NCBI GenBank assembly: GCA_036768485.1
Contig: JAVLUZ010000154.1
Location: 35,635,769 to 35,699,768, forward strand
Reading direction: 5' to 3'
Length of the DNA: 64,000 bases
Source: Mermis nigrescens
Lineage: Eukaryota; Nematoda; Enoplea; Mermithida; Mermithidae
Shown: positions 25,474 through 60,164 of the stretch, one piece after another
Position numbering within the stretch: position 1 is the stretch's first letter
Layout: each line of letters starts with the position of its first letter
Notes under the pieces: model-generated
What the model saw: only the letters and a program-made list of their open reading frames with translations
Databases searched by the model: none
Told to the model about the DNA's origin: nothing
Position numbers and translations under genes: made by a program

Positions 25474-25477
25474 ATTG

Positions 25478-26307: not shown

Positions 26308-26372
26308 GCTTTACAATATCAGAAACCCACGAGTCAAATTTAGGCGGGTAACCTCTCCAGCGCACCAAATAA

Positions 26373-27763: not shown

Positions 27764-28026
27764 GCTTTCTTTTTTAAAAGCTGCATATATAATATACCTA
27801 GCGCGCACCCATATTTATAGACGTAGTAAGCTGTTTTGGCCTTCTCCCCCTCAGCCTGCTGATCAGAATAGCGCTTCAGCACTCTTTTGCCCGCTTCTTG
27901 CATGGCTCTATTAAACTCGATGCACCTGGGGCACATTTGGACATTCAAGTACCACCTGCCAGAATTTGTTTCGAAAAAGTCCCTTTCAGAACTATTTTTC
28001 TTGCAAAAATAGCAAACCTGGATCAT
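27742..28026 (-). CDS. Zinc-ribbon-like small protein
   Basis: 94 residues from ATG 28026. CYFCKK near the N-terminus pairs with MCPRCIEF about 28 residues later, giving a CxxC...CxxC arrangement of a small zinc ribbon. A helix NRAMQEAGKRVLKRYSDQQ and a hydrophobic tail YGCALGILYMQLL follow. It overlaps the next gene's start. It follows the tiny ORF at 28034-28152 by only 7 nt, so the two may share the TATA box at 28203. Such proteins bind nucleic acid or protein partners; no specific role can be given. Confidence 0.55.
   Translation of the reverse strand: MIQVCYFCKKNSSERDFFETNSGRWYLNVQMCPRCIEFNRAMQEAGKRVLKRYSDQQAEGEKAKTAYYVYKYGCALGILYMQLLKKKACLHPVN
27812..27819 (-). promoter_or_regulatory. 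TATA box TATAAATA for the gene at 27763
   Basis: 49 nt before ATG 27763, embedded in the 3' part of the zinc-ribbon gene; it argues for the shorter start. Confidence 0.65.
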
Positions 28027-28033
28027 TAGGGAC

Positions 28034-30917: not shown

Positions 30918-31185
30918 CACACCTGGGCGTGGGGGATTTGGGTGGTATGCACCCCCCCCAGAAACCAAAATACCCCGCCCCCCAGAAATCAAAATACACC
31001 CCCAGATATCAATTTTTGAAAATTTTTTTCGTTTTTTTCGCAATTTTTTGATGCCAATGCATGATGAGAAACGTCGAAAAATGGTGTTTTTATCACCATA
31101 CCACCATTTTTAAGGCCATTTTTTGACCTTCAAAAAATCTTGCACCTCGTCCCCTTCCCCAGAATTTTCTTGCTGCCCACGTATG
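30918..31185 (-). mobile_element. R1 MITE copy 6
   Basis: Begins CACACCTGGGC, ends GCCCACGTATG, with a perfect 8-bp duplication GTGCACAG (30910-30917, 31186-31193). It is inserted in the left arm of the large inverted repeat, so it post-dates formation of the array. Confidence 0.95.
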
Positions 31186-40155: not shown

Positions 40156-40799
40156 CATACATGCACTCGCATAAAAATTCTGTGGGGTCAGGCACACACA
40201 TAGGCGTCGGGGCGGGGGGTTTGGGAAGTATGCACCCCAGAAGTTGGAATACCCCCAGAAATCAAAATACCAACCCCCCAGAATTCAAATTTTGAAAATT
40301 TTATTCCCTTTTCTAGCGATTTTTTCGATGCCATTGGATAGTGCTCGATGAGAGACGTCGAAAAATGGTGTTTTTTTCGCCGTCACGACAACTTTCAAGA
40401 CGCATTTTTTGACCTTTGAAAATTTTTTGCACCCCCCCCCCCAGAAATTTTTTCATTCCATCCCCAGAATTTCGGTGCTGCCCACCTATGGTCAGGCAGA
40501 AAAAAATTTTAGAAAGTGCACTTTCTGGGCATGCAAAACGATAGGTGTTCGTCAAAAGCAATCTTTTTCGGCGTTGGGTAACGCCCGTTCTTTCTATAGA
40601 AAAAAAGCATGAAAAGCTGTCAAAAAAATTTGGAAAACGAGTAAATTAAACCAAATATAGATTAAAAAAATGTGCGTATGGCGCAAAGTGCCAAAAATTT
40701 CGTAACTTTTGAGCCAAAAATGAGCTAAAAACGCCTAAAAAGGCACACTTTTTACAATTTTTACCGAAAAATAGATAATGCTGGGGGAGGGATAGCGGC
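40156..40799 (+). mobile_element. R2 MITE broken by two R1 insertions
   Basis: Starts CATACATGCACTCG, is split by R1 copy 8 (40195-40490), and resumes with GAAAGTGCACTTTCTGGGC and ATGGCGCAAAGTGCC in R2 order. R1 copy 9 enters at 40800. The R2 3' terminus beyond 41056 was not found. Confidence 0.6.
40195..40490 (-). mobile_element. R1 MITE copy 8, nested in R2
   Basis: Begins CACACATAGGC, ends GCCCACCTATG, with a perfect 8-bp duplication GTCAGGCA (40187-40194, 40491-40498). Confidence 0.9.
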
Positions 40800-41056
40800 C
40801 ATACGGTAGGCGGCACCAAAATTCTGGGATGGAGGTGCAATATTTCTCACAGGTCAAAATATTAGTCTTCAAAATGGTGGTATGGCAAAAAAGCACCATT
40901 TTTCAACGTTTCTCATCGAGCTCATATCCATTGGCATCAAAAAATTGCAAAAAAACAAAAAAATTTCAAAAATTGAATTCTAGGTTGGGTATTTTGGTTT
41001 CTCGGGGGGAGGGCAGAGGTGTATACCCCAAACTCCTTCCCTAACGCCGAGGTGTG
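40800..41056 (+). mobile_element. R1 MITE copy 9, nested in R2
   Basis: Begins CATACGGTAGGC, ends GCCGAGGTGTG, with flanks ATAGCGGC and GTAGCGGC (7 of 8). Confidence 0.85.
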
Positions 41057-41204: not shown

Positions 41205-41424
41205 GTGGCATGCAACCTATTATCACTAAACTTTTAGAGGCAGACTCGTTTATTATTTCGACTATTTCAGCCGTCCATTGAACTAGGTTATCACACACAC
41301 GAATTGAATTGCAGAGTATGAGCGTATGAAATAGGAACATTGCATGTTGGGTGGTTGACACGATAAAACAGATAAAACGTGCTCTAAATAATTATAATGA
41401 ACGAACCGAAACCTTTTTTTGTTA
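41205..41424 (-). repeat. 3' LTR of the gag-env-pol element
   Basis: Shares GGCATGCAACCTATTATCAC and everything through CGAACCGAAACCTTTTTTTG with the right LTR. Adjacent interior sequence 41425-41448 is the polypurine tract on the minus strand. Confidence 0.9.
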
Positions 41425-41519
41425 CATTTCTTTCCCCATAAAGAAAAGTAAATAAACTTTTTGTGTTTTTGTTGTTTAAGAATAAATATGATGTGTACAT
41501 AAATACAAGAACAAGGGCG

Positions 41520-44500
41520 CTAAAATTCCTCTTCATCCTCATCCTCGCTAGCATCCTTTTGAGGCATTTGATAAGCCTTTAGTCTATTGATGTGTACTTT
41601 GATAAGTTCCATGTTAGGCTTTCGCATATCTTGCAGCCAAGCATTTGGAAATTTCATCTTCTTTATGACATATGGTCCATGCCAACTATGTGCTAACTTT
41701 TTAACTTTTCCAGGCGCTACCGCAGGTGTTCTCAATAAAACTGTTTGATCAACTGCAAAATGTCCAGCATTTTGATCTCTGTCATATTGGCCTTTTTGGT
41801 GTTCTTGGGCTTTTTCAATATTCGTTTTTGTCAGTTCCCATGCCTTCGTTAATTTCAGTTGTAATCCTGTGCTATAATCATCAATATCGACATATTGTTC
41901 ATTAATTGTAGTCGAAAGAGCTACATCGATGGGCAGTCGTGCATGCCTTCCATGAATTAAATAGAAAGGCTCATATCCAGTGGATTCATTTTTAGCAGTT
42001 CTGTAGGCAAAAAGTGCATATGGAATGAAGGAATCCCAGTCTTTCTGATTTGAGGAAACATACATTGATAGTGTCGTTGCCAATACTCTGTTGAATCTTT
42101 CAACAAGTCCATCGCATTGTGGGTGATATGGTGTTGTATATATTTTAGCAGTTCCACATAGTCTACATATTTCTTTGACAAGCTGTGATGTAAAATTGCT
42201 GCCTTGATCAGATAACAATTTCTTTGGAGCTCCGTGTCTGCACACAATTTTTTCCACAAATACCCTAGCAATTGTGTCGGCCTTCATATCTGGTAATGCG
42301 TATGCTTCTGGCCATTTTGTGAAATATTCACAAAAAACAACTATAAATTTGTTTCCGGACATGGTTAATGGCAAAGGCCCTAGGATATCAACGGCCATAA
42401 GTTCAAAAGGTTCGCAAATTGGGATTGGAACCAAAGATGCTTTAATGTATTTTGAAGGAGGTTTCCTTCCTGCACAATCTAAGCATTCTTTACAATGTTT
42501 ATAAATATCACTAGCCATTTTAGGCCAATGGAATCTTTCTTGCACCTTCTCCAACGTTTTCTTGAAACCTAGGTGGCCTGCGAATAAATCATCATGAAAA
42601 CGTTCAAGGATTTCGTTAATCAGTGCGTAAGGTAAAGCAATAGCCATTGCATTACTTTTGTCTCTTATGAAATAAAGCACGCCATTGGATAGAAGGTAAT
42701 GCTTCATAATATAGTCGAGTCGACTTTGAAAATTTCCATCTGTAGGAATTTCATTTTTCTCCAGATATCGTAAGATGATTCCAAGTGATGTGTCTTCTTC
42801 TTGGTATTCTCTTATAGTTTTGTATTTACCTTGTACAGCACATATTAGAGCTCTTGATAAGGCATCTACATTTATGTTTTGAGAACCTGGTTTGTATTGA
42901 ATTTCTAATGTATACTCTTGTAGTATCAGTGACCAACGAACCAATCTAGAGTTTGCCATATTTGTTGATGTCAAATATCGTAATGGCGCATGGTCTGTTT
43001 GTAATGTACAAGGGCGGCCATAAATGTATGGTCGAAAGGTTTTTAGTCCCCATATGATGGCAAGGGCCTCTTTCTCTATGGTGGAATAATTCTTTTCGGC
43101 TTTATTTAAGCTTCTACTTGCAAATGCAATCGGTCGTTCACCAATTTCTGTATCTTGTGAAAGTATTGCTCCTAATCCACTCCCTGAAGCATCTGTTTGT
43201 ACTTTGAATTTCTTATCAAAGTTGGGATAGGCTAGAACTGGGGCTGTTGTCAATAAATTTTTAAGTTCTAGAAAAGCTTTTTCTGTCAGATCAGTCCATT
43301 TAAATTCAGTATTCTTCTTCAGTAGTTTGAATAGTGGACTAGCTATTGTGGAGAAAGATTTTATAAAACGTCTGTAGTATGATGCTAAGCCAAGAAAGCT
43401 TTTCAAGCTCTTGATGTTTATTGGCCGTGGAAACTGGTTGACAGCTTCGATTTTCGCTTTTTCAGGACACAAACCATTTGCTGTTATGAGGTGTCCAAGA
43501 TATAAAACATCAGGACGAGCAAATGTACATTTCTTCAAATTTAGTTTTAGATTTGCTGCTTTCAATCTGTTGAAGACTTCTTGCAAATCTTGAACATGCT
43601 GAGATATACTTTGTGAGCATACCAATATGTCATCCATATAGACAAATACATTAGTCCATTGAAGATCTTTCAATACTTGCTCCATTAGCCTTTGAAAAGT
43701 GGCTGGCGCATTTGAGAGTCCAAAGGGCATCACATTGAACTCATAGAGTCCCATAAAAGTTGTGAATGCAGTTTTATGCCGATCTTTTTCATCCATTTTT
43801 ATCTGCCAATATCCACGATCTAAATCAAGTGTGGAGAAAATGGCACATTTTCCGATGTTATCAAAAATATCATCGACTCTTGGGAGAGGGTAGACATCTT
43901 TCATTGTTATGCTATTTAGCTTTCGATAATCTATGCAAAAACGTTCAGTATTGTCCTTTTTCTTTGCTAGCACAACTGGGCTAGACCAGGCACTATTTGA
44001 AGGTTGGACAATATTTTGTTTGAGCATTTTCTCAATATTTTCCTTAATTGTTTGTCTTTGTGAGTAGGGAACCCTATATGGCTTTTGCTTGATAGGCACG
44101 TGAGTTGAAGTTGGGATAGTATGTTTGACCAAATCAGTAGATGTTGAAATATCATTTGAATGATAAAATGCATGATAGTTCTTGAACAAAAAAGCCTTTA
44201 TATGCGGCTTAAACTCTTCTTTAATATTTTCAAGCTTTGATGTGACAAGCATTTCAAACTCTGAGTAGGCAAGTGACATGTTGCTTGTTTGCACACTTTG
44301 TAGTGTTCCAAAAACTGTGTTTCTGTATACAGTTATTGGACTATTAGTTGGATTGATGACTGGTAAATTATCAATTGAGATTTTTGATGACTGTATTATG
44401 GTTGGTATGTAGAGAGGTCCAAATGATGAAAATTTGTAGTCTGGAAGAAATATATGTGGAGTTATTTCTTCAGCTATTCTCTTTGTACTATTTGGTTGAA

Positions 44501-47500
44501 TTTGAATGAGACATAATGTACGTGGTGGCATTATAATAGTTTTGCTGCTTTTCATTGAAACAGCTTCCTCAGCACCATTGTTCATAGGTACTAGAAGTGG
44601 TAAAGTTTCACTTCCTGTTGACATCCATCCGTCTGTAAAATTAAATTGGAGGCTGCCTTTTCCAAGCTTTTTCAATATATCAATGCCTAGAACTACCGAA
44701 TGAGGACAATCTGGCATAATGTAGAAAGGAAATTTACTTCTGAATTTGCCAATTTGTAGATTTAGTATGACTTGTCCGATTGTAGGCACATTGTGTCCAG
44801 TGAGTGATATTGCATTCGAGTTTGCAGGCATCGTTGTTAATGGTTTTTGCAAGGACTCAATAGCATCTAGTGTATTTTCATTGATAAGGGATATGCTTGC
44901 TCCAGTGTCAATTAATGCTATACATGGAAGATTTTGTAGCATAATGCAAACTGTAGGCTGATCTGAATTTCCTACAGTATAAACTAATTGTTGTTGACCC
45001 TGATTCATAGGTTGAAGCTCGATATCACGCTCATTGTCTGCACTTCTGCGTTTCATATGACAAATGCAGCATTTGAAAAACTTCCAGCAAGTTTGGAAAA
45101 ATGGATAGATGAAGGAAAATCCATAGCAAATGCAAAGTACAAATGCTATTATGAGTACCGCATTTAAAATTGTCTGAAATTTCCCACTAGTGAAAAATTT
45201 GATGATATTCCAAATTAAGCCAAATGGATCCGTTCTTCGTTCAATGTAATTTTCAGTGCCTTCTTGGATATTTCTTAAAGATCTTTGTAACGTTTTTGGA
45301 TCAAAAACAAGATGATTTGTATTATCAACAAAGTGATCAAATTGTTCTTGCAAACGTTCAAAATTAAGAATCATTCCTTGAAGCATAGCCAGATTTGTTT
45401 TCTGTATTGAGGTTGATTCTGGCATAACTGGTGGTGCATCAAAAATTATTGTTGGGTAGTGCTTTTTCCAAATTAGCTCCAGAGAAATATTTTGTACATG
45501 AATATTTCCATTTGAGCTTTTCCAAGTTTGAGAATTATGATCCATATGGATACCAGGTATTACTTGCTCACAAGGGATTTTTGGCGATGACTGAACAAGG
45601 TCATTGCTCCCTGGTAACACAAAATATGTGGAGCCGTTAAAGTCCTGTGCTGGTAAAAAAGCATAGCACTCATTTTTGACTTTGTAGTCCCAGAAAACTT
45701 GTGAGATGTTTACTGGGGCACATTTCCATACTTTAAGTACAGAACCAGCAAAATGGGCAAATATGTCATTTCGATCAAAAAGAGCTCTTGCTCCAAACGT
45801 AGCATCTAATCGAAAAAATTGCCAAATTAGCTTAAGTTGTGTTGAAGCTATATGACATAGATTCAGCCATACGTCACGAAATTCATTTATTTGTATGTTT
45901 TGTAGCATCGCTTCGAGATACTGTAACTTGGAATTGATTGGATCATCATCTGAAGCGGCTGTTTTAGATGCTCTATGCATTGACTGTTTTTGCAGATTGA
46001 TTAAATTTTTCATTTTCGGATCGGTCTCATTTATTTTGACCAAATGTGGTGCTAATTTAATCATAGCATATTTGTCTTTTGGTGCTAATGCAACACCTTG
46101 ATCTGTTAATATATAATAGTCTGGCAGGCATGATTTAGCAGCTAATACTGTCTTATTGTGCAAACATGTAAATGCACCCTGAATCTTAGGCAAAATAAAA
46201 TAATTTCCTATTGCCTGTATATCATACCATTCACGTTTCAAATATGCACATGGCATTTCCAGACTTCCATTCCAAACTATAGTACCTTCCATCATTTCAC
46301 AATAACTATTATAAGCTTTACAAGCTGATACGTCGCCTAGGCTGCTTACAAGCATTTTTTCATCATACGTCCCAATTTCGCCTCTCAAAATAACAATATT
46401 CGATTCTGATGTGCATACTTCATGGCAACAATACGAAAAATACGGCTTCAGCGTAAAATTCGATTTAAAAAGGCCTTCTGCAATTTTTATAAGCTCAACT
46501 GAGTTCCATACTCGATAAGCCACTATTAAACTGCATTCTGCAGGACTTATATGCACATTAACTTCATTTTCTGACACGATGCCTTTTGAGCCAAGTATTC
46601 CTACACTTGTGCATATAGTTTTCCTCTTAACATTGCATTTCCAAGCTTCTTTTAAAGCTGGATCATGATTTGGCACGTATAGTTGCACAGTTTCAGTAAT
46701 AATCTTTCCTGCCTCAGGCGGAATACATTTTATGCTTTCTGGTACGTGATAAGCAAGTCCATGCTTTGAAATACCACAAATCTGAAAATTTTGACCGACT
46801 GACATGGCTACTGGCACAAGCCAAAATGCTAATGCTACGAAAAACAACATACTTGGCTTTATGTGTGAACTCAATGAGCTAGCAGTGCGTTTGATATGTT
46901 CTTCATTTTGAGGCTTTTCTGTCTTTTTGCACGAAAATACTAAGTTTTGATGGTTATGATGTGAACCACCTTGACCTTCGGGTAGTTGCGTTTGTTGAAG
47001 CATGTCTGTCAAAGTTTTGACTTGATCCTTCAAGTTATTATTTTGCTCGCATAAAAATGCAAGCTGGTCAAAAGTATTTTCTTGTGTGTCAACAGCATTT
47101 ATTTTTGGAGCATTGGGCTGACGATTGTAATACTTTGACTGTGTTTGATAATTTGGTCTTGTTGGTACATAGTATCTGTATCGGTAATTTTGAAATTTTT
47201 GATTGTTTCGACATTTTGCTGCTATGTGACCTGGTTTGCCACAATTGAAACATATAGGGCGTCCGTCAGTAGTGCGATTATATGTAACTATCGGTTGTTT
47301 AGGCGAGTTTCTGCTTTGAAAACGAAATGGAACTGATTTATTCAGAGGTTTTTGTTTATTGGTGTAATTTGTAAATGATGAAGTTGTCTGATATGATTGT
47401 GGTGTATTTAACACTGAATTTTGTAGCGCTTGTCTATTGAAAATTTTTAGCTGAGCTTCAGCATTACGTGCAGCTATTTCAGCTTCTTCAAAAGTTTTAG

Positions 47501-48044
47501 GGTTGGCCGTCATTACTACTTTCCATATCTCTGGTAACAAACCAGCAATGAAAAATCTTTTCATCAACTGATTTCTTACGTCGTGCGAGAGTTCAGCATA
47601 TGCTTCAGACGTGAGTTTTTGTACAGATACTGCATAGTCCAAAACTGGCTCACCTCTTAGTTGTCTACGTGAATGTAATTCAGATGATTTTATTTCTGCA
47701 GCATGAGCAGGATTAAATCGTGCTCGTAAAGTGTCCGTTAAGTCTTTGAAAGTCATTGTTGGTCTTTGTGCCGCAGGGATTCCATTAAAAATTACTTCGG
47801 CAGCATCTCTGAGAAACGTAGGTAAAATTTTTCGTTTGTAGTCGTCAGTCCATTCTAGAGCCTGTGAATATCGGTTGAAACGGTCGAGCCAGAGGTCGAA
47901 ATTTTCCCCTGTCCTGCCGTAGAAAAAGTCCTGGTCGGCTTTTAACGAAGGCATGGAGAAAGGTCGCTTTGACGTTGATAAAGTTTGTTGAATCTCATCC
48001 AAAGTATCCTGAATCATTTGCATTCTCGCTCTCCTTGTTAGCAT
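41520..48044 (-). CDS. Gag-Env-Pol polyprotein, about 2174 residues in one frame
   Basis: The first ATG of the open frame is 48044. Residues about 1-240 are Gag, with a CCHC knuckle CFNCGKPGHIAAKC near 266. About 396-985 is an Env-like ectodomain: a signal-type segment MLFFVALAFWLVPVAM, many Cys, N-glycosylation sequons, a second membrane segment near 955-983 and a Cys-rich cytoplasmic tail. Pol follows: protease IDTGAS near 1045, reverse transcriptase with YMDD near 1468, RNase H (TDASGSGLGA), integrase HHCC near 1816, catalytic DDE near 1884, 1945 and 1981, and a GPY-type end near 2121. Env normally lies after Pol in insect errantiviruses; here it is between Gag and protease without a stop. 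Confidence 0.9.
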   Translation of the reverse strand: MLTRRARMQMIQDTLDEIQQTLSTSKRPFSMPSLKADQDFFYGRTGENFDLWLDRFNRYSQALEWTDDYKRKILPTFLRDAAEVIFNGIPAAQRPTMTFKDLTDTLRARFNPAHAAEIKSSELHSRRQLRGEPVLDYAVSVQKLTSEAYAELSHDVRNQLMKRFFIAGLLPEIWKVVMTANPKTFEEAEIAARNAEAQLKIFNRQALQNSVLNTPQSYQTTSSFTNYTNKQKPLNKSVPFRFQSRNSPKQPIVTYNRTTDGRPICFNCGKPGHIAAKCRNNQKFQNYRYRYYVPTRPNYQTQSKYYNRQPNAPKINAVDTQENTFDQLAFLCEQNNNLKDQVKTLTDMLQQTQLPEGQGGSHHNHQNLVFSCKKTEKPQNEEHIKRTASSLSSHIKPSMLFFVALAFWLVPVAMSVGQNFQICGISKHGLAYHVPESIKCIPPEAGKIITETVQLYVPNHDPALKEAWKCNVKRKTICTSVGILGSKGIVSENEVNVHISPAECSLIVAYRVWNSVELIKIAEGLFKSNFTLKPYFSYCCHEVCTSESNIVILRGEIGTYDEKMLVSSLGDVSACKAYNSYCEMMEGTIVWNGSLEMPCAYLKREWYDIQAIGNYFILPKIQGAFTCLHNKTVLAAKSCLPDYYILTDQGVALAPKDKYAMIKLAPHLVKINETDPKMKNLINLQKQSMHRASKTAASDDDPINSKLQYLEAMLQNIQINEFRDVWLNLCHIASTQLKLIWQFFRLDATFGARALFDRNDIFAHFAGSVLKVWKCAPVNISQVFWDYKVKNECYAFLPAQDFNGSTYFVLPGSNDLVQSSPKIPCEQVIPGIHMDHNSQTWKSSNGNIHVQNISLELIWKKHYPTIIFDAPPVMPESTSIQKTNLAMLQGMILNFERLQEQFDHFVDNTNHLVFDPKTLQRSLRNIQEGTENYIERRTDPFGLIWNIIKFFTSGKFQTILNAVLIIAFVLCICYGFSFIYPFFQTCWKFFKCCICHMKRRSADNERDIELQPMNQGQQQLVYTVGNSDQPTVCIMLQNLPCIALIDTGASISLINENTLDAIESLQKPLTTMPANSNAISLTGHNVPTIGQVILNLQIGKFRSKFPFYIMPDCPHSVVLGIDILKKLGKGSLQFNFTDGWMSTGSETLPLLVPMNNGAEEAVSMKSSKTIIMPPRTLCLIQIQPNSTKRIAEEITPHIFLPDYKFSSFGPLYIPTIIQSSKISIDNLPVINPTNSPITVYRNTVFGTLQSVQTSNMSLAYSEFEMLVTSKLENIKEEFKPHIKAFLFKNYHAFYHSNDISTSTDLVKHTIPTSTHVPIKQKPYRVPYSQRQTIKENIEKMLKQNIVQPSNSAWSSPVVLAKKKDNTERFCIDYRKLNSITMKDVYPLPRVDDIFDNIGKCAIFSTLDLDRGYWQIKMDEKDRHKTAFTTFMGLYEFNVMPFGLSNAPATFQRLMEQVLKDLQWTNVFVYMDDILVCSQSISQHVQDLQEVFNRLKAANLKLNLKKCTFARPDVLYLGHLITANGLCPEKAKIEAVNQFPRPINIKSLKSFLGLASYYRRFIKSFSTIASPLFKLLKKNTEFKWTDLTEKAFLELKNLLTTAPVLAYPNFDKKFKVQTDASGSGLGAILSQDTEIGERPIAFASRSLNKAEKNYSTIEKEALAIIWGLKTFRPYIYGRPCTLQTDHAPLRYLTSTNMANSRLVRWSLILQEYTLEIQYKPGSQNINVDALSRALICAVQGKYKTIREYQEEDTSLGIILRYLEKNEIPTDGNFQSRLDYIMKHYLLSNGVLYFIRDKSNAMAIALPYALINEILERFHDDLFAGHLGFKKTLEKVQERFHWPKMASDIYKHCKECLDCAGRKPPSKYIKASLVPIPICEPFELMAVDILGPLPLTMSGNKFIVVFCEYFTKWPEAYALPDMKADTIARVFVEKIVCRHGAPKKLLSDQGSNFTSQLVKEICRLCGTAKIYTTPYHPQCDGLVERFNRVLATTLSMYVSSNQKDWDSFIPYALFAYRTAKNESTGYEPFYLIHGRHARLPIDVALSTTINEQYVDIDDYSTGLQLKLTKAWELTKTNIEKAQEHQKGQYDRDQNAGHFAVDQTVLLRTPAVAPGKVKKLAHSWHGPYVIKKMKFPNAWLQDMRKPNMELIKVHINRLKAYQMPQKDASEDEDEEEF

Positions 48045-48324
48045 AAAATTAGTGAATAATTTAGCCCAATTGTTCAGCCGAGTATTAATATTAGTATTCC
48101 AGAATGGCGAATACAATTTGAATGATTAATTAAGGCCAACAAATCAAATTATCGCAACTATTTCCAACAATATTCAATAAGTGCCTTTAATTCAAAGCTA
48201 ATCAAACTGATTTCTATAGCCACTAAATAACAATAATTTTTTATTGTCCAAATTCACACAAATTCCTCCAACAGCTAAAGTTGAGGCTTAAAACCACGTA
48301 TTCAAATACATAAAAATGGGCAAC

Positions 48325-48340
48325 GTTTGATTGGCCCCCA
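48325..48340 (-). other. Primer-binding site of the gag-env-pol element
   Basis: On the minus strand TGGGGGCCAATCAAAC starts 6 nt after the LTR edge. It begins with TGG as required to pair with a tRNA 3' CCA; the tRNA was not identified. Confidence 0.6.
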
Positions 48341-48346
48341 AAATAT

Positions 48347-48567
48347 GTGGCATGCAACCTATTATCACTAAACTTTAGAGGCAGACTAGTTTATTATTTC
48401 GACTATTTCAGCCGTCCATTGAACTAGGTTATCACACACACGAATTGAATTGCAGAGTATGAACGTATGAAATAGGAACACATTGCATGTTGGGTGGTTG
48501 ACACGATAAAACAGATAAAACGTGCTCTAAATAATTATAATGAACGAACCGAAACCTTTTTTTGTTA
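48347..48567 (-). repeat. 5' LTR of the gag-env-pol element
   Basis: About 221 bp, nearly identical to 41205-41424 (one T-run length change, two substitutions and a 2-bp indel by eye). Confidence 0.9.
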
Positions 48568-49619
48568 GCTTCTCCTATCGCGGTTCGCTGGTTCCAAAAC
48601 TCAGTCCTGTCGAATGATACCCGAGAGGTACAAAGACAGTGTGCACATCTTCAAACCGCAAAAATCGCACATTCCCGGCAACCTATCAAAATAAATGTTC
48701 TTACAGAAGTGTCAAGAATGTTAACTCGACCGTATATTAGGAATTTTGTAGTTGGCGGACCGATTGTACAACCCTTGAAGAAGCGAGAGGTTTGATTACC
48801 AGAATACGATTCAAACAACAGTGAAGACGTCGATTAAGGTGAGAATTGTGTTTTTATGCGATATCAAGTAGGACCTTTTAATATAAAAGTTAAAACAGAC
48901 GGAGATGAAACTTGAAAAATAAAATTTTTTAAGTTTATTTCAATCAAAGGGCTTTTCCGTCTCTTTTTTCAACTTTTATGTTAAAGATACCTGCTTGAAA
49001 ACGCACAAAAACGCCATATTTTTGAAATTTGCAAAAATGGATGTATTCTAAAATTCGCCCCCCTTTTTCCATTTTCCGGCTTTTGGAAAAATTTTGTAAT
49101 TACTGATTTTTCAATTTCTTAAAATGCAGCAATTTTTCGTGTTTCAATCATTGCGAGCATCGCTAGAAACCCAAAACTGGCCGCGAGAAACCGAGGTTTT
49201 CATATGCAAATCAGCCTGATTTGCATAGTATGCAAATTAGGCAAATTTGCATATTACAAACTTGTTCAGGGCATGTCTTGGGTTCATAGTGCTGCTCCTG
49301 ATGATAAGAAGCCCAAAAAGCGCTGTTTGAGGCTTCAGATGGTGTCAGGGGATGATCTAAGCCTAAGCCAAAGATTAGGCAAAAATTGCTTTCAGCTCAC
49401 TTTGCTTGCCTGCAATATTCGCCCCATCTGACTCAGGCTTACATCATCCCCTGGCGCCAATTTGAAGGCACATAACTAAGCCTAAGCCTAAGCCAGTGCT
49501 AAGCTCAACTTAATGATTAGAAAACATGTTGTTTACACCACTCAGTATTCTTCTAATCCTCCAGTTCGTCGGGCCTTTGTCACAATTATAAATTAGCAAG
49601 TGCAATTGGAGCATCAAAA
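48568..49619. other. Spacer between two LTR elements
   Basis: The first 230 bases hold an open plus-strand frame with protein-like text (VRWFQNSVLSNDTREVQRQC), and a good splice donor AAG/GTGAGA lies near 48839. These could be a host or TE exon cut by the retroelement, but no partner exon was found. The rest has simple words such as TTTGCATA and AAGCCTAAGCC and no gene. Confidence 0.4.
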
Positions 49620-50696
49620 TGTAAATGTAGCCGGTTCGATCTGGGTCTACAGGATCATCACAGATACAAACCGTACTAACATTCACCTGCGAGATTTACC
49701 TAGGTACGTAGGTACTTAAGTCTGCGCTTAGTGCTGGCCCCGATCGCGCGGCTCTGAATGGCTTTCGATCTTTGGACCCTTACAGACCTTACGGCTTCGA
49801 TCCCCTCAGCCCTAATATTGCTGGCTGCTTCTCGTCGGGTGATCTCAGCAGCTACACCCTAAGACCTAAGGCTACCTACCTAGTCTCGGTATTTGCCGCG
49901 GAGGTCAGTTGACCGATCTCAAGCTCAAGTTGTTTATTTAACTTATTTTCAATCAGTGCCTGATCAGAAATGTTTTTGGTTCCTAATATGTGTAGCACGC
50001 TGAACAATGAAAACAACAACAACGAGCTCTACGCATGATCAATCATCCTAAAAAATTAAATAATATTTTTGATCAATTTTTGGCTTGAGAAATAAATTAT
50101 GATTTCCAAATAAAATAAACTATCATACGAAATTTACCTATCAGTCCACTAGATGGGTAGAAGTCCTCGACGTAGGGATAATGGCCGACCTAACCTTGGT
50201 ATAACCAAAAACCACTGGGTAGGTTTTCTCTAATTTTAATTCGACGCAGAAATCACGGCCTACAGCCGGACAACAAAATACGCAAAAGAAAAACGATAAT
50301 GTACAGAGTGTACAGTCGAATAACCGGCCAACAAAAAACCAAAAAGCCAGACTCTAATACAACAATGTTACGTATACTGGCCTCAAGGGCCATTACAGTA
50401 AAACAAATAAAGATCAAATTAACCTAATACTGATAAGCCTTTATCTCAGATCGAATATTCTCGATTGCACAAGCGGTATGCATGAAACGATTACTATTAT
50501 CATACACTTAACTCTATGCTACCGGACAAGTATCTAAATGTTTTTTATTATTGAAAAATTGGGGAAATAATGGGAAGACCAGCAGGCATAGCCCACAGTG
50601 CACTATCATATGATAGCTACTAGTATTGGCTATGAAGAGTGGCTATCGCGAACTGCTAAGGCAGGTTCGCCTATACGTGTAACTCTCGCAGTTACA
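49620..50696 (-). repeat. 3' LTR of the giant gypsy element, about 1077 bp
   Basis: Starts TGTAAATGTAGCC and ends CGCAGTTACA, giving TG...CA ends. The match with 63250-64000 runs to the window edge. On its right, CTCCCCCACGTATAG is the reverse of the polypurine tract. Confidence 0.9.
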
Positions 50697-51699: not shown

Positions 51700-54321
51700 G
51701 ACGAAAAGCTGCTGGTCAAATTCGACGCCGTCGCAGAGTTCCAAAAAGTTCAGTACGTCGAACTTGATAATTAATAACGATCCTGATAATTGGCCTTCGA
51801 GCCATGCGGTTTCCCGCAACGTCTTTGATGTTGAAAATATTCTTGATCCGATTCCGGTTCGCGACGCGTATTCGAACGCTCACGATACTGATATGGCAAT
51901 TGCCTACGCCCGTACATGTGTTGGCGTAAGCGTCAATGTGGATCGACTGGTCGATCGTCGTCCTCAAAATCGTCGTCGTCCTCGTAGTCTGTCCGCGTAA
52001 CGACGCGGTATAGGTGGCGGCGGTGGAGCAAATAATTGCTCCGGCGTAAAACCGTAAGATTGATCACGTGAAGGTTCGCGTGGACGCTGTTGTTGCTTGC
52101 GTAACAGGCCACGGTTTTGGCAAAAGTGGACCGGGTCGAGGTTGCCAGGGCTGGATAGCCCCCGCTGGCTGGCTGACTTTGTTCCAACGGTGAGCGATAC
52201 AACTGGTCCCATTGTTGTCGTTGACGGGATTGTGACCGGCCCCGATGAGTTCCGCGGTTTGACTGTGGCGGACGGCGGTATTCATAAGGCTGCTGCTGTT
52301 GCGAGCGCGACAGATGACCAGCATCGGCCTGAGAATACGCCTCGGAACGCTCACGCGATTCCGTAAATTGCTGCTGTTGCCGCGGTTGGGTCTGCGGTCT
52401 TGTGTATTGCTGTACATGTGGTTTTACTTGTGTCTGCGGTTGTGCTTGCGATTGTGAACGGTGATGCGTTTGTGCGTAAGCGTTGCCGGGACGACTGCGG
52501 GTCTTGCCGCCCTCGATCCTCTTTGGCCTAAACGCGCCTTTAACTTAGCTGCGACTTCAGCTTGGACGAGCCTTCTGACTCGTTGTTTTTCCAAATTCTC
52601 TTTAACCGACGCAAAGTGTGCTTTCGGATTTAGTATCGTAAAAACGATTCAATTTGGCCTTGTGTTCGTCTTCTGACATGTGACGAACTTCTGAAGACTC
52701 AGCAAGAGAACCGCGGCGCGTAACTTTGTCGCACGCCGTGGCATTTCCGTTGCCAAATTCTCACGATCGCGTTTCAATCGTCATGCGTGTTCTACGCATT
52801 TCAATTTGTGCTTCCAAAGAAAGATCGACTTCTGGCATATCAAGGCTCGCTGCGGATCCGCTCGGGTCCTGCGAGGATGCCTGTTGCCTTTCTCGACAAA
52901 TTTTCTCTTAATTCGCCTTGGATTCGGTGTTTGAGGTAAAATACAGATTTTTGCTGACCTCTGAAACGATCGAATTGAACAGGAACTTCGAGTGGCGGGT
53001 TGGTAGCTAACCGAATTTGCCTAATCATGTTATGCAAAACATGAGGACTTTCAATTTGTGCCGTTAAGTCCGGGAATTCCGGAAAAGCCTCACGTGGCGA
53101 TGGCGTGTAAGATTCGCCAAGGAACGCTACGCGCAACATGCGACGTAACTGTTCCACCATGCGCCAACCTATTCCGGCATTGCCGTAGGCGTACGCGAAG
53201 AAATGGAATTTCCTATCTAAGAATTCCAAAAGCGCTGTAGCGCGCATGACGTCTATTGAAGAAAAGACCGTCATGTGTCGATACTCCGAATCATATAATG
53301 ACTGAAATTCTCGGAAAGTATCGAAAATATCGACCATCTGACGTGTCGATATTAAAATGGGCGCTAGGTGATCCGGCGCTGGTGACATTCTGTGCGGATA
53401 TAAATCCGGGCGAATCTGATGTGTAACGCCGTCGATCACCTCGCTCGGTGCGTCAAGGTGTGGGTGTACGACCAAATACTCGAGCGGAACCTCGTACAAC
53501 ATCATTCCGGTTGTGATAAAAAACCGTATGCGCACGAAGTATTGGTTGGGGTAAAATAATCGGTTAAACACGCTCATTTTGCTAATAAACCAAGGTGCGG
53601 GCTCATGATCGACACCAGCCACAGGCTGTGCGATTGTAGGCCACACTAAAGGACGCGAGGGCGAGTCAGTCGAAGTCGCGTACTGCAAATGGATTGCGTA
53701 CACTCGATCGAAGTACACTTGAGCAGCTTCGACCAACTGATCGTACAAACGCGATCCTGCGACCTCACCCAAATAGGAACGTAAGTCGTGCAAAACGACT
53801 GGCGCAATAGTGCACGGTGGTCCGCGCGTCATATTTTCCATCATGGTGAAGAAATGCTGTACGTAGCGCGAGCGATTTTGTACTCTAGCGCTTTCATTCG
53901 CGGACATACGTTCGCGAATAGCTTGAATGTGCGCAGGTATTGCGACTTCCATATTTGATGATTGGCTTTGCGTAGCCTGTGGTTGAATATTTGCCACGGT
54001 ACTAGACACACCCGTCATGGCCATAGAAGCCGTAAAACGAGTATCCGGTGCCAACGTACCTTGTGGCACGGGCTGAGACGTGACTTGCGTGTATAATGCT
54101 ACTTGTGGTACTTCGTGTGCAGCTAATGTACGTTGTGGTTGCGGCGGAAAACCAATAATTTCAGTCATGATCACGTCGGGCTCAGACTCACGCTCTACCC
54201 GACCCGGCTGCGAAGTCGGCAAAGGTGCGAGCGAACTGATGCCCAAGGGCGCTTGTTGGTCCGCCGCAAGCGATTGCGAGACAATCGGTTGCGAAACGGT
54301 AACAATCCCTTTTCGAGCCAT
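51700..54321 (-). CDS. ORF3 of the giant gypsy element, unknown; open to 52840, then frameshifted tail
   Basis: ATG 54321 begins MARKGIVTVSQPIVSQSLAA, and the frame is open for 493 residues. After a Gln/Ser/Pro-rich N-terminus of about 130 residues comes a folded-looking region (RYVQHFFTMMENMTRG, FNRLFYPNQYFVRIRFF, SLYDSEYRHMTVFSS, FHFFAYAYGNAGIGW, HNMIRQIRLATNPPLE). Downstream, shifting frames to about 51700 encode Arg/Gln-rich text (QPRPGPLLPKPWPV, DYEDDDDFEDDD), probably a basic nucleic-acid-binding tail now broken. It overlaps the exonuclease ORF by 134 nt. No transmembrane segments, so not an env. Function unknown. Confidence 0.6.
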
Positions 54322-55936
54322 TGCTCGCGCGTGTTACACGCGGTGGCGACAAGTTAGCTTGTCTGTCCGCCTCGGCGTCAGATAACGCCATCACTAAACG
54401 TTTGGGAGATAAATCGTCATCCTCAGTGGAAATCGATGGTTCAACGTCAACCATGGGCGAATCGTATGGAATATCGGTTTGCGACGAAAACACAGAAGCT
54501 GGAGTGCTCGAGCTAGTTGGTTTTGACTTAGGTTCCGTGTCAGGCGCATTGACCGGGCCCAAAACTGGGTCGGCAACGGTCTGCGATTCCTGAGTATAGA
54601 ACATTGGATTCTCGAAAACATTAACGTGAGCCATCGCATCCGTTACAGAAGCGATGGTAGTGGCCGCAGCTATGGCCACTGGCGGTTGCGGAGCTGGGCA
54701 ATAAAAGTCCTCAGCTAAGATTAACTCTTCGCCATTCGAATCAACTTCAGCGTCAGCAGCTGCGCTGGTCGACTGTCCCTGAGGTGGCTTACTAGTCGAC
54801 AGCGGTATGCGCACCTTAGCTTTAGGACCGCTAGCCTTAATATACAGTTCATCGCCTGTAAACGAAACCGACATGGGTTTTCTATCGTCAGTAATGCGAT
54901 TATCTTGCGTGCACCCTTCTATCAATATAAACACATCGATAGTTATGAGGGCGTCCATCGCTAGATAATGCTGCATGTCCCTAGTTAAGGGTAAGCTCCA
55001 CGCCTGTCCGAAGTTATCAGGCGCGTTCGGATCAATATACATGTCAAAAAAGAATTCGGCCAAGCGCTTTAATGAGTGTGACTGCGCTTTAATGCGTAAA
55101 CGACGCGTAAACGTTCTCGCCAATGGCTGAATATCAATGAAATTTGCAATGAATGGATCTTTCCAGTGCAGTTTACTGCGAATTTCTGCATCCGGTATTG
55201 CCACAATTTCCTCGAAAGTTGGCCCATAAACATGGAAATACGCAAGTCGATCTTGCGTTGGGTCATAACAAACCATATATACGTTAGGTAAGCGCGTTTC
55301 AAGCAACTGGTGAAGCCCGAACGGAGGTTGCGGGAACTTCGCTAGATCCCAACAGAACACATGGCCGTTCGCGCTCGCAACTTGGACGTAGCGTACGAAT
55401 GGGCCATGGAGGTCCTGGTAAGTGGGACATAGTTGCTGATAACGCAAGTCCCAGGTCTTATAATGCCTGCCTTTTCTGTCATTCACAAATTCGGAATCAT
55501 AGCCTAAGAATAAAGTGCCATTTGTCATATTCGATGGCTGAATTAACGCCAAAATGGCGGCAAACGACTTCTGGTCATCGGAGATTATGACGGTGGGTAG
55601 AAGTCTGTTCTTTGGTACGCGAGGGGTTACCAAAGGAAATCTACCAAACCGATTCGCCCACCAGAGTTGCTGGTCGTTAATACGCTTTTTATGATTTACG
55701 ATTTTATGTGCTGCTTTATGCTTTATCCATTTTGCGGTAAATGATTCTAGACCGCCAACACGACTATTATCGTTTTGGGGTAACGGGTCTGGTACGACCA
55801 AGCCCCGCTCCAAAGCCATACTGGTCAATGCCGAACGAAACTCATCTAGGGACGCGGGATCACGCCCCTCAAATTTGCATCGGCGACCAGCTGCTTCCAA
55901 CAATGCCTCCTTGCTAGGGGTACCTTGTGCAGCCAT
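54188..55936 (-). CDS. DEDDy 3'-5' exonuclease-like ORF in the giant gypsy element
   Basis: 582 residues from ATG 55936, overlapping the integrase end by 91 nt in another frame. Residues about 140-345 match the RNase D/WRN exonuclease fold. Motif I is FLGYDSEF (D147, E149). VYMVCYDPTQDRLAYF carries the motif II Asp (D229 or D225). FIDIQPLART and SHSLKRLAEFF are the usual connecting helices. Motif III QHYLAMDA gives Tyr324 and Asp328, the DEDDy form. The C-terminal 230 residues are acidic, Pro/Ser-rich and probably disordered. All four metal-ligand positions appear present, so an active nuclease is plausible. I know of no standard gypsy element with this gene. Confidence 0.7.
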   Translation of the reverse strand: MAAQGTPSKEALLEAAGRRCKFEGRDPASLDEFRSALTSMALERGLVVPDPLPQNDNSRVGGLESFTAKWIKHKAAHKIVNHKKRINDQQLWWANRFGRFPLVTPRVPKNRLLPTVIISDDQKSFAAILALIQPSNMTNGTLFLGYDSEFVNDRKGRHYKTWDLRYQQLCPTYQDLHGPFVRYVQVASANGHVFCWDLAKFPQPPFGLHQLLETRLPNVYMVCYDPTQDRLAYFHVYGPTFEEIVAIPDAEIRSKLHWKDPFIANFIDIQPLARTFTRRLRIKAQSHSLKRLAEFFFDMYIDPNAPDNFGQAWSLPLTRDMQHYLAMDALITIDVFILIEGCTQDNRITDDRKPMSVSFTGDELYIKASGPKAKVRIPLSTSKPPQGQSTSAAADAEVDSNGEELILAEDFYCPAPQPPVAIAAATTIASVTDAMAHVNVFENPMFYTQESQTVADPVLGPVNAPDTEPKSKPTSSSTPASVFSSQTDIPYDSPMVDVEPSISTEDDDLSPKRLVMALSDAEADRQANLSPPRVTRASNGSKRDCYRFATDCLAIACGGPTSALGHQFARTFADFAAGSGRA

Positions 55937-58900
55937 GGGTCTGCAAAAGGAAAAACATTAGATAATGGTACGGCATGTGCTGTTTTAGAACCATTTAATA
56001 AACGTACAGGCGCGCAGTCCTTAGCTTTCTGTTCCCTGCCCGGTAAATCCTCAAAACTTATGACAACTGCCGGGGCAAGAGGGCGATGTGGTAATTTTAC
56101 CAACACAAAATCGCCAGGGACATACGCGTGTTTTTCCACAATTAAATCAGAGTAAGGTAGTTTAGGTTCAGGCAGAAGTCTATTCCTATGAACGTGATGA
56201 ATGATGAGAGGATTATAGACATATGCGATTTTCGCAGTTTCAGGCGTAGGTAAGTCAATAATTCGGTATGGCCCAACACGCTTGGGTGATAGTTTACCGA
56301 TTTCAGGTTGAATGACTGAGGTATTATTAAGATAGACTATATCCGAGAGATTAAAATTTGTGTGCGTTACGGATTTATCATATTGCGATTTTTGCTGCTT
56401 ACGCGCTTGCGTTAAGTTTTGAGACGCGATTTCATGCAGATCTTGCAAAGTCAGCTTTAAATCAATGACATATTTTTCCGCAACAGATGGTAAATTCGGA
56501 TTTATTGCGAAGTCATTTATAAGTAAAGTGTCAAGAGGAAATGCTGGTTCGCGACCATAAAGCATTTCGAAAGGAGATATATTAGTCGATGATTGTGGAG
56601 TCGCGCGGTATGCAAATAATGCAAAAGGTAGAAATTGCTCCCAATCATACTGGGAACGCGCACTCAGCTTAGACAAACAATCAATCAAAGTTCGATTATA
56701 ACGTTCCACCAACCCATCACACTGGGGGTGATATGGGGTTGTAAATATTTTCTGAACGTTTAATAATTTGCAAACTTCCGAAATGAGGGTAGATGTAAAA
56801 TTTGACCCCTGATCTGTCAAAAATTTTTTGGGAACTCCATAACGTGGTATGATTTCTCTTAGCAATAAATTTGCAATTGTTGTTGCTTTTATGTCAGAAA
56901 CAGCAAAAGCTTCCACGTATTTTGTAAAATAATCCATAAAAACTACAATTTGGTCATTTCCGGAGGGGGATTGCGGCATATGCAAACAATCGCACGCAAT
57001 GAGTTCAAAGGGCGCGGATACTTTGATTGGTTGCAATGGAACGGATGTGGAATTTAATGCGACCTTACGTTGTAAGCACACATCACAATTCCGACACCAC
57101 GCGATCACATCATTTTCCATGCGCGGCCACCAATAACGCATTTGTATGGCGGGCAAAATTTTGCGCGATGAAAAATGAGCTCCGAAAATAGAGTCATGAA
57201 ATTCCGTTAATATAAAACGACGCAAAGATTTGGGTATGACTATTTGATGAACGACAGTTGGTGAACGCTTAGGTTGAAAACGACAAAAAAGTACATCGTT
57301 TACGAGAAAAAATTCGTCACAATATTTTTTCGTTGTTAAGTCATTCAATGCGATGCGAATTTTATGCAATTCATCATCTGCACGTTGCTCAGCGAGTAAA
57401 CGCGCAGGTGTTAGCATTTCAGCTTTTTCGGCATCGGTAAGTAATAAGCGTTCGCGAAATGTAGGTGGTTTCGAATTGGTAGGATCGGTTTGCGCAGTAG
57501 GATTATTATTTTGCGCATTTGGATGATTAATTGGTGCAGTAGGCGCATTATCGCACGATCGGTCAGGTGGAACCGATTCATCATCTGACTCAGAATCTTC
57601 GGATTCTAAATTTGCGATGTTAACGATATTTTTGCGCTCTACTTTATATTTGCGTTCTGCATGATCATATTTAGGATGTCGTGAAAGAAGATCAGCTGCG
57701 CAGTTATATGCACCAGGAACATAAACGATATCATATTCGTATTCCTGTAATTTGAGACCCCAACGGCGTAAACGACTCGATGGGTCTTTCACGTTTACTA
57801 ACCAGGTTAACGCTTGATGATCAGTTTCGACAATAAATTTTTTACCGTAAAGATAGTGTCGATAATGCTTGATGGCCCACACTACCGCTAACGCTTCTTT
57901 TTCTGAAGTAGCATAATTACATTCAGCAGAATTTAGCACGCGACTAGCGTAGCTAAGAATAAAACGATTTTTGGATGGTAAATGTTTTTGCGTCAAAATA
58001 GCACCTAACGCATAGTTACTTGCATCAGTTGTTAAAATAAATTGGTGCTCATCATCGAATTTCGGTAATTGTAAAATAGGTGGGGACGTAAATGCTTTCT
58101 TCAGAAGCTCAAAGGCGGTTTGGTGTTCAGCCTTCCAGCAAAATTCGACATCTTTACGAAGAAGATGGAATAATGGTTTAGCGATTTTAGCAAGATCCTT
58201 AACGAATTTCTTAAACCATTGGACTAAGCCAAGGAATTTCTGCAAGGATTTAACGGTTTTCGGCACGGGAAACGAGATTAAGTCTGCGACTTTGGACATG
58301 TCAGGAGCGATGCCCATTGCACTTATGCTGTGGCCAAGAAATTTTACCTCTGCATGCGCAAGATGGCATTTATCAGGCTTTACACGTAAGTTTGCCTTTT
58401 TAAGAGCAATGAAGACGTTTTCAAGATCTTTTAAATGTTCTTCGAAAGTACGTGAAAAAATAATTATGTCATCGATGTAAACGAGACAAGATTTCCAATT
58501 TAGACCTGCGAGCACAAGCTCCATTAGTCTTTGAAAATCTGCGGGTGCATTTTTTAAGCCAAAAGGTAAAACTTCAAATTCGTAATGACCAACAGGACAT
58601 ATAAATGCTGTTTTTTCGCGAGATTTATTATCGAGTGGAATTTGCCAGTATCCAGATTTTAAATCGAGTGTGCTAAAATATGCGGCATTGCCTAAGGTGT
58701 CAAAATAATCATCTAATTGCGGAAGAGGATAAACTTGCGTTTTAGTAATGTCATTTAACCGTCGATAATCGACGACTGGCCTAAGGGAACCGTCCTTTTT
58801 TCCAATGAGAAATAATGGACTTGCCCATGGGCTAGTAGTAGGTCGAATAATTTTATCCGCAAGCATTTCATTTATAATTTTCTGCATAGATTCTCTTCTA

Positions 58901-59037
58901 GAATGCTCAACACGATAAGTTTTTCCAACAACGGGTGGATTATCCCCTGTGTCAATATGATGTTTCATCAAGGGGGTACGACCGAGAGGTTCGTTTTTTA
59001 ATGCAAAAATTGAGTCGTATTTTAAGACAAAGTTCAC
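55846..59037 (-). CDS. Pol: reverse transcriptase, RNase H, integrase (giant gypsy element)
   Basis: 1063 residues from 59037. Reverse transcriptase has SPLFLIGKKDGSLRPVVDYR, FSTLDLKSGYWQIPL and YIDD in LVYIDDIIIFSR near 190. RNase H has TTDASNYALGAIL and VETDHQALTWL. The integrase HHCC domain is HDSIFGAHFSSRK to CDVCLQRK, with the catalytic core IACDCLHM, FLTDQGSNFTS and HPQCDGLVERYNRTL. A C-terminal SPKRVGPYRII is the GPY/F-type module. The frame is intact. Upstream, the protease-linker frame ends at 58952, so a frameshift of about one base near 58990-59037 joins them. Confidence 0.9.
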   Translation of the reverse strand: MNFVLKYDSIFALKNEPLGRTPLMKHHIDTGDNPPVVGKTYRVEHSRRESMQKIINEMLADKIIRPTTSPWASPLFLIGKKDGSLRPVVDYRRLNDITKTQVYPLPQLDDYFDTLGNAAYFSTLDLKSGYWQIPLDNKSREKTAFICPVGHYEFEVLPFGLKNAPADFQRLMELVLAGLNWKSCLVYIDDIIIFSRTFEEHLKDLENVFIALKKANLRVKPDKCHLAHAEVKFLGHSISAMGIAPDMSKVADLISFPVPKTVKSLQKFLGLVQWFKKFVKDLAKIAKPLFHLLRKDVEFCWKAEHQTAFELLKKAFTSPPILQLPKFDDEHQFILTTDASNYALGAILTQKHLPSKNRFILSYASRVLNSAECNYATSEKEALAVVWAIKHYRHYLYGKKFIVETDHQALTWLVNVKDPSSRLRRWGLKLQEYEYDIVYVPGAYNCAADLLSRHPKYDHAERKYKVERKNIVNIANLESEDSESDDESVPPDRSCDNAPTAPINHPNAQNNNPTAQTDPTNSKPPTFRERLLLTDAEKAEMLTPARLLAEQRADDELHKIRIALNDLTTKKYCDEFFLVNDVLFCRFQPKRSPTVVHQIVIPKSLRRFILTEFHDSIFGAHFSSRKILPAIQMRYWWPRMENDVIAWCRNCDVCLQRKVALNSTSVPLQPIKVSAPFELIACDCLHMPQSPSGNDQIVVFMDYFTKYVEAFAVSDIKATTIANLLLREIIPRYGVPKKFLTDQGSNFTSTLISEVCKLLNVQKIFTTPYHPQCDGLVERYNRTLIDCLSKLSARSQYDWEQFLPFALFAYRATPQSSTNISPFEMLYGREPAFPLDTLLINDFAINPNLPSVAEKYVIDLKLTLQDLHEIASQNLTQARKQQKSQYDKSVTHTNFNLSDIVYLNNTSVIQPEIGKLSPKRVGPYRIIDLPTPETAKIAYVYNPLIIHHVHRNRLLPEPKLPYSDLIVEKHAYVPGDFVLVKLPHRPLAPAVVISFEDLPGREQKAKDCAPVRLLNGSKTAHAVPLSNVFPFADPWLHKVPLARRHCWKQLVADANLRGVIPRP

Positions 59038-60164
59038 GAATTTGTTGCTGCTGTCTAGAATTAACGGCGGAGCCGTTTAAAGCTTTATTTATTGATGCAA
59101 AAAGTTCTGGTGTCCTATCATCCAAAGATGAAACGTGTGACACAACTTCGGCATCAGTGGTTAAAGAACCTATTATTTCACCAGAGTCAATGCGAATTGG
59201 CGCTTTAGAGATGTTACAAACGCGAACAGGTATTAAAGGTTGTGAAGCATCGACTATAGACGGAGCAACAAAAAGTGAAGTTTTTTCCATAAAATCGGGA
59301 TTTGGTTCAAATAATGCGAAGTCAAAATTGCAAGAACCATGACTTATATAGCCAGGTGTAATTAATTCATGCCTAGGTTGTATAATAACAGGCTCAGGTA
59401 ACGAAACATGCACACACACAACACCAGAGGTAGTTGCGTTGGGTTTCGCGCGGAAATTGCAATTTTTCGTGAGATGAAAGTAAATTAACCTTTATGCCGT
59501 TTATGAAAGCACAACGCTCAATAGGATTAACCCACATGAGTGCGGATTCGCAAAAATCATATCCTAAGAGCATGTCTTCCGGCAAATGATCAATTATAGC
59601 TACTGAAGTAGAGATAGATTGTTCCGCAATTGTTAAAGTCATATTTACTTTATAACGAACGACTGCGGTGATTTCGCCTACACCATGTACGACTTGTGAA
59701 ACCTGTTTAGGTGGTAAATTAAAACCAAGACGTAAGAATGCAGACGTGGTCATCATGGTGACCTGTGAACCCGTATCTATGAGAGCAGGTACGTCAACGC
59801 CATGAACTTTAACGAGAATGGTGGGTAAATTTGTCCCAGCATGGCTTACGATAGGAATAGTAGGATCTAAGGTCTTAGACGGAGGTAGATTGATTTTCTC
59901 ATAAGTTGCAAGACGACGTTGTAGACGTTCGTACTCTTCAAGAAATTCTTGCGACGCGAATAAATTAGGACGCGCGCTAGATTCTGGCCCTTTCGCAGTA
60001 ACCGTGTTCACATCATGAGGAGATGTAAGGGTTGGCTGCGGTGGGGGCACATTTGTGGCGGGTTGGTTATCAGCCGTATATGTGACATATGGACGATTAA
60101 AATTATTGTCGTTGCGATAATTCGAGTTATAGTATGTTCCACGCTGTTCATTTGGAAATTGCAC
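58952..60164 (-). pseudogene. Protease and linker region of the giant gypsy element, frameshifted
   Basis: The frame 60164-59394 holds the aspartic protease: VPALIDTGSQVTMMTTSAF and the flap/second strand HLPEDMLLGYDF. A second frame (59419-58952) carries the linker to RT (VIIQPRHELITPGYISHG, IDSGEIIGSLTT). The frames overlap by 26 nt at about 59400. It is downstream of the Gag zinc knuckle as in other gypsy elements. Either a decayed junction or a programmed shift would explain the break. Confidence 0.75.

Follow-up and report, generated by a model that had tools for sequence, protein, structure and literature searches.

We analysed a 64,000-nucleotide window of the Mermis nigrescens genome (GenBank assembly GCA_036768485.1, contig JAVLUZ010000154.1, positions 35,635,769 to 35,699,768 of the forward strand), whose minus strand carries a long terminal repeat (LTR) retroelement. 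A minus-strand open reading frame (ORF) of 2198 codons at 41520-48116 spans its coding part and has 2174 codons and a stop when counted from the ATG at 48044, the length given in the first-pass annotation of this DNA. The features of the element, from its 5' to its 3' end, are the following, where PR, RT, RH and IN stand for protease, reverse transcriptase, RNase H and integrase and Env for the envelope-like part.

48347..48567, minus strand: 5' LTR, a direct repeat of 41205-41424 (97.7% over 222 columns)
48323..48340, minus strand: candidate primer-binding site just inside the 5' LTR, chosen by eye
41520..48044, minus strand: single Gag-Env-PR-RT-RH-IN frame (ORF and translation in four pieces)
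46860..48044, minus strand: Gag segment, ORF residues 1-395 (Pfam Retrotrans_gag 2.5e-7 at 72-169, zf-CCHC 6.2e-6 at 264-279)
46791..46859, minus strand: internal signal-type segment, ORF residues about 396-418 (19-residue hydropathy up to 2.22)
45189..46799, minus strand: Env ectodomain, ORF residues about 416-952 (16 cysteines invariant among representatives)
46248..46664, minus strand: class III fusion-domain-like part, residues 66-204 of the Env piece (P0002)
45549..45938, minus strand: Monjiviricetes_fusion (PF24664), residues 308-437 of the Env piece (P0002), E 1.4e-12
45093..45188, minus strand: membrane anchor, ORF residues about 953-984, then a positively charged tail (hydropathy up to 2.48)
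44661..44963, minus strand: aspartic protease, LIDTGAS (Pfam RVP 1.1e-7)
43491..43964, minus strand: reverse transcriptase, YMDD (Pfam RVT_1 1.1e-38)
42912..43223, minus strand: RNase H (Pfam RT_RNaseH 4.3e-40)
42120..42632, minus strand: integrase, H2C2 and rve (Pfam 1.8e-20 and 6.6e-10)
41427..41439, minus strand: candidate polypurine tract, chosen by eye
41205..41424, minus strand: 3' LTR, a direct repeat of 48347-48567

The position of Env between Gag and PR, in one common frame, is confirmed for the window copy. The middle part comprises 590 residues between a Gag with one CCHC knuckle and PR-RT. The other two frames of the same stretch contain 146 stops (frame 1) and 168 stops (frame 2), and the three opposite frames contain 107-152; among 500 Markov sequences derived from the env segment, the longest open run was only 146 codons. 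The GC content at third codon positions (GC3) varies only between 0.27 and 0.30 among the four segments of the element, and this evenness gives no sign of a recent foreign patch. The solved chains nearest to the RT are Ty3 RT (E 5.5e-71) and Ty3 Gag-Pol (E 1.3e-70), in a comparison that did not include BEL/Pao RT. A duplication scar of env at the Gag-Env and Env-PR borders was also considered and rejected, as the local score there is 28, below the null mean (31.8), and 1428 of 2000 null values reach it.

The same arrangement recurs elsewhere in the 524-Mb assembly. The genome search scored the best candidates only (74 of 1805 for Env, 105 of 1700 for Gag and 73 of 4090 for PR-RT), and absence from these best-candidate lists carries no weight. 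The 80 Env rows merged into at least 71 places once nine secondary rows were excluded, and the frame is open for at least 1100 codons in 53 of the 71 and for at least 1900 codons in 19. A listed gag match lies directly upstream on the same strand in 49 of the 71 places, at a gap of 1-1159 bp; 22 have no listed gag, and in none is gag solely downstream. Listed Env accompanies 54 of the 105 listed Gag rows. Six of the 51 unpaired Gag rows were fetched, of which five had Env beside them and one was a deleted copy. The PR-RT comparison used 72 of 76 rows (four secondary rows excluded) and 50 of the 51 unpaired Gag rows. Listed Env occurs within 1.5 kb upstream of 31 of the 72, Gag only upstream of 11 and neither upstream of 30, and none of the 41 rows lacking upstream Env has a listed Env within 6 kb downstream. 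When four of the 30 rows with neither were fetched upstream, Env was present in three and one stretch was mostly N.

Twenty loci were fetched at about 10 kb each, and their order is gag, env, PR-RT and then RH-IN where found (neither L010 nor L013 gave an RH-IN match). Env and PR are in a common frame with zero stops between them in all 20, and tblastn places Gag and Env in a common frame in 16 of the 19 loci with a gag match. Among the exceptions, L015 and L016 belong to one family and are almost identical but have different break points, and in L016 the zinc knuckle is still in the Env frame. Clustering by identity gave 12 families, the window's and 11 more, which are 25-61% alike (L024 and L025, at 86%, were counted as one). 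The Gag-Env-Pol order belongs to a diverse and old lineage and is not an accident. Thus the order reported by the first-pass annotation holds for other copies and for 11 further families, and one of the outcomes it had named as fatal, an env segment absent from all other copies, was not found.

An env-less relative, L034, was examined as a candidate and rejected; it has gag and then RT after 665 bases, with no Env and no protease motif. A twin place has the same 665-base gap, although only L034 was read. Both read as internal deletions, and they fall in the same gag clade as the window element. No close relatives were confirmed in IMG/VR, GTDB contigs or phage records.

The LTRs of the window element are about 221 bp each, and their alignment of about 222 columns contains two substitutions and two short indels, in keeping with the earlier description of them as near-identical. 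Sister copies suggest that the LTR starts with TGTAAC. By eye, no target-site duplication is present at the window copy, and sister copies have a 5-bp CTCAT (L009) and a 4-bp CATG (L011). LTR pairs were found in three of the 20 fetched cuts (L009, L011 and L012), a count limited by the many cuts that end near the 3' end of pol. Three extra pieces were checked for LTRs, yielding a pair of 163 bases in L018/L039 and none in L020/L040 or L015/L041.

The middle region has the topology of a membrane glycoprotein. Between the tail of Gag and the protease, 19-residue hydropathy exceeds 1.6 only at ORF residues 395-418 and 953-984, so that the Env limits first proposed (residues 396-985) were right to within a few residues; the best windows elsewhere reach 1.12 in Gag, 1.36 in PR-RT and 1.40 in RH-IN. 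Among 13 representatives of the 12 families, the signal-type peak exceeds 1.7 in 12 and is 1.58 in the remaining one, the anchor reaches at least 2.08 in all 13, and 16 ectodomain cysteines are invariant in all 13. The window's Env has 19 cysteines and seven sequons. The signal, anchor and cysteine-rich ectodomain of the first-pass annotation are confirmed, the first two on hydropathy; the number of sequons taken alone is within chance (84 of 1000 shuffles reach seven).

Comparison with families and structures allows the middle region to be recognised as a viral glycoprotein of class III, for which fusion function is predicted; the other outcome named as fatal in the first-pass annotation, a region with neither glycoprotein similarity nor a membrane topology signal, was thus not found either. 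The Monjiviricetes_fusion match of the window's Env scores 46.9 bits against a cut-off of 27, and of the 13 representatives all match PF24664, 12 match BDV_G and three match Glycoprotein_B. The Env profile matched glycoprotein B in the PDB at 4.5e-5, and chu-type glycoproteins were among the fold matches of the Env model. The model was scored as having a class III fold with good alignment confined to residues 66-204, for which reason a claim for the whole protein was dropped. A structure predicted without relatives had a mean pLDDT (predicted local distance difference test) of 36 and was not used. The first-pass annotation had proposed class III glycoproteins and baculovirus F for comparison; the viral matches were class III types, and baculovirus F was absent among the families listed in library scans of Env.

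As a separate observation, two uncharacterised entomopoxvirus proteins, W6JPK9 and Q9YVZ3, were Foldseek matches 3 and 9 of the Env model in BFVD, these ranks suggesting that insect poxviruses may have class III-like proteins.

Selection on Env could be estimated from L024 and L025, the only usable pair, since near-identical copies differ too little. The nonsynonymous (dN) and synonymous (dS) distances of this pair are 0.073 and 0.728, a ratio of 0.10, and on its evidence Env is under purifying selection. The next eleven Env pairs gave ratios of 0.22-0.46 with dS above 1.7, near synonymous saturation. Env and RT distances are correlated (r 0.92, reached by none of 2000 permutations), and their trees have six of ten splits in common, four of the ten RT splits being missing from the Env tree; the outgroup in the RT comparison was one lineage with two similar RTs. 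Env and Pol have apparently been inherited together since a time before the families diverged.

Judging from sequence, we consider that this is a Ty3/Gypsy-group LTR element that makes a single Gag-Env-Pol precursor, cut by signal peptidase and PR, with a probability of roughly 0.6. Gag would be synthesised in the cytosol, after which the internal signal would draw the ribosome to the endoplasmic reticulum and the ectodomain would enter the lumen. The anchor would then halt transfer, and PR-RT-RH-IN would be made back in the cytosol; the net charge of +3 over the 20 residues following the anchor fits a cytosolic Pol. Signal peptidase would free the N-terminus of Env from Gag, a likely site by the -3,-1 rule being residue 415, which A-M-S precedes. 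The viral protease would cleave between the anchor and the protease active site, which lie about 64-124 residues apart; a protease motif was matched in 12 of 14 rows, and in these 12 its distance from the anchor is 64-124 residues. Gag and Pol would end within the budding particle and Env outside it, by analogy with flavivirus-type polyproteins. Flavivirus and alphavirus structural polyproteins carry capsid, internal signal and glycoprotein in one precursor, a likeness of layout only, the viruses being unrelated. Among the separation routes listed in the first-pass annotation, cleavage by signal peptidase and PR is the best-fitting, and it is one that we infer. The broader proposal is that a Ty3-like lineage has a negative-strand-virus class III fusogen fixed in the middle of Gag-Pol, with a membrane-threaded precursor, signal peptidase as the Gag-Env cutter and delivery of Env, Gag and Pol to a single membrane in one molecule; we regard this as an even bet.

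Several observations weigh against a single threaded precursor. One unbroken frame from gag to the RH-IN piece exists in only six of the 20 loci (L009, L018, L019, L020, L022 and L028, from five families), the other 14 being interrupted somewhere or lacking a piece. A pol match is out of the Env frame in eight of the 20, the first part of Gag is out of that frame in L024, Gag in L027 is in a different frame with the shift near the signal segment, and gag was undetected in L026. The charges flanking the signal segment are weak (net +1 before, 0 after). An in-frame Met lies within 15 codons before the signal core in six of 14 rows (L009, L014, L017, L018, L020 and L025), so separate initiation is possible there, the window's family included. 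Equimolar (1:1:1) Gag, Env and Pol would be odd for a particle and would need extra regulation. In L014, RT is read in the -1 frame relative to the protease; the two frames overlap by 166 bases (6734-6899), and an in-phase AAAAAAA lies within the overlap. Nine places share an Env score within rounding and have open frames of 1386 codons (seven) or 1184 codons (two); the -1 shift may be common to all nine, only L014 having been read. Translation of L014 would then yield mainly Gag-Env-PR, with RT-IN made in smaller amounts by frameshifting, and the stoichiometry would be less of a problem.

The separate production of Env or Env-Pol from a subgenomic mRNA, by way of a spliced leader or an internal promoter or start, with an ATG beside the signal segment, is improbable in our view. 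It draws on the near Met of the six rows and, in the window, on an ATG at 46850 with A at -3 that directly precedes the signal segment. Splice signals there are poor, however: the top leader donor scores 0.43, and no acceptor upstream of the Env ATG exceeds 1.27, against element-wide bests of 6.5 and 6.3. The nearest upstream in-frame Met is 69 codons from the signal core in L012, 34 in L016, 33 in L019, 32 in L026 and 78 in L027, and these five families, none with such a Met within 30 codons, argue against separate initiation as a general route. Because no stop separates Env from PR in any of the 20 loci, the product would extend into PR wherever Env starts, and a subgenomic product would still be an Env-PR fusion. 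Less probable again is the excision of Env as an in-frame intron, raised in the first-pass annotation, by which spliced RNA would encode Gag-Pol and unspliced RNA Gag-Env-Pol. Given the common frame, Gag-Pol could survive the removal of an intron in the right phase, and splicing yields the extra protein of Cer1 in the accessible text of one report (PMC10309623). The idea found no support in controls: the best in-frame donor-acceptor pair around Env in the window was matched by 164 of 300 Markov sequences, and in all eight testable loci (seven families, the window's included) the score of Env-removing pairs was reached by 57-199 of 200 codon shuffles. Six of 14 rows were skipped for want of a knuckle or protease motif, and the splice-site matrices were generic ones, a point that tempers this case for the unspliced precursor.

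The middle domain could instead be a retained, non-fusogenic membrane protein that targets particles within the cell and has no part in infection. This is doubtful, though the least so of the alternatives; Env copies are indeed present as genomic repeats, but the 16 invariant cysteines, the recognisable class III domain and the Env dN/dS of 0.10 in one pair speak for a conserved glycoprotein. A chance fusion or assembly chimera, confined to a single copy and without biological meaning, has a negligible probability and is ruled out by the family-wide order. The lack of a target-site duplication at the window copy would suit it, but order and frame recur in copies on other contigs and in other families, the GC3 is even over the four segments, and the one usable pair shows purifying selection on Env. 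The rejection of a chance fusion in the first-pass annotation, argued from one intact frame, is thus upheld.

Retroviruses and env-bearing LTR elements are described with the order gag-pol-env, in which Env either has a separate message, usually a spliced one, or comes last in a frame. The Mermis element resembles Ty3/Gypsy elements (Metaviridae) in its CCHC-knuckle Gag, PR-RT-RH-IN order, Ty3-type RT, LTRs and, in sister copies, target-site duplications. It differs in that Env sits before PR, whereas the available part of the International Committee on Taxonomy of Viruses profile of Metaviridae has Env, if any, encoded downstream of integrase (PMC7879559); nor does it have the gag-pol-env order of Errantivirus. 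In Cer1 of C. elegans, which is also Ty3-like, there is no stop between gag and pol, but its extra ORF (part of CERV) follows pol, is spliced and is unlike retroviral Env, as far as the accessible text goes (PMC10309623).

Captured glycoproteins are known from other LTR elements. Atlas virus and other nematode belpaoviruses have an unbroken Gag-Pol-Env frame with a glycoprotein captured from a negative-strand RNA virus, according to the part of the report available (PMC9094657). They share with our element the single-frame precursor and such a glycoprotein, but their RT is of the BEL/Pao type and their glycoprotein is a class II phlebovirus-like Gc that forms the C-terminus, with no Pol after it. 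Anakin, a mosquito BEL-Pao element, has a captured chuvirus glycoprotein (PMC7642597), a likeness in that chu-type proteins are among the fold matches here; it is BEL-Pao, and Env before Pol is not stated in the portion of that paper at hand. TelKA of bdelloid rotifers carries a mononegaviral fusion protein, but of paramyxovirus F type and as ORF3 downstream of pol in the text available (PMC5408684). Here Ty3/Gypsy elements would have captured a class III fusogen; in the accessible text of a 2023 arthropod survey, glycoprotein capture by Gypsy was not clearly found (PMC10084718). An Env placed between Gag and Pol was not met with in the portions seen of the full-text literature, which lay mostly outside subscription journals and did not cover Repbase. 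A conserved lineage with Env in mid-frame represents a different way to assemble particle, enzyme and envelope, and the question of how one precursor supplies Gag, Env and Pol becomes testable.

The window contains other repeats. A second Ty3-like element of conventional order has LTR repeats at 49618-50344 and 63248-63975 and ORFs at 52840-62664, and its RT is 47% identical to that of the Env-bearing element. Its extra ORF at 54188-55936, downstream of pol, matches the 3'-5' exonuclease family PF01612 below the cut-off (E 0.026) and has no PDB or NCBIfam match. DxE and YxxxD motifs seen by eye recall the DEDDy ORF3 of bdelloid rotifer elements, as described in the part of that report available (PMC5408684). 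The ORFs at 16697-28032 look like a Maverick/Polinton, with matches to DNA polymerase B (0.012) and to a Pox_A32-type ATPase (1.6e-4), both below cut-off, and protease- and integrase-like ORFs recognised by eye only. Dispersed short repeats resembling miniature inverted-repeat transposable elements, in both orientations and 63-99% alike, occur at 2155-2289, 10367-10550, 13036-13215, 30955-31145, 40273-40381 and 40843-41009; one lies about 200 bp beyond the 3' LTR side of the Env-bearing element. Elsewhere on the window's 48.8-Mb contig, a COX1-like stretch (G000:C61:36162539-36163888) has no stop in 450 codons when read with the invertebrate mitochondrial code and is either a recent mitochondrial insertion or a misjoin.

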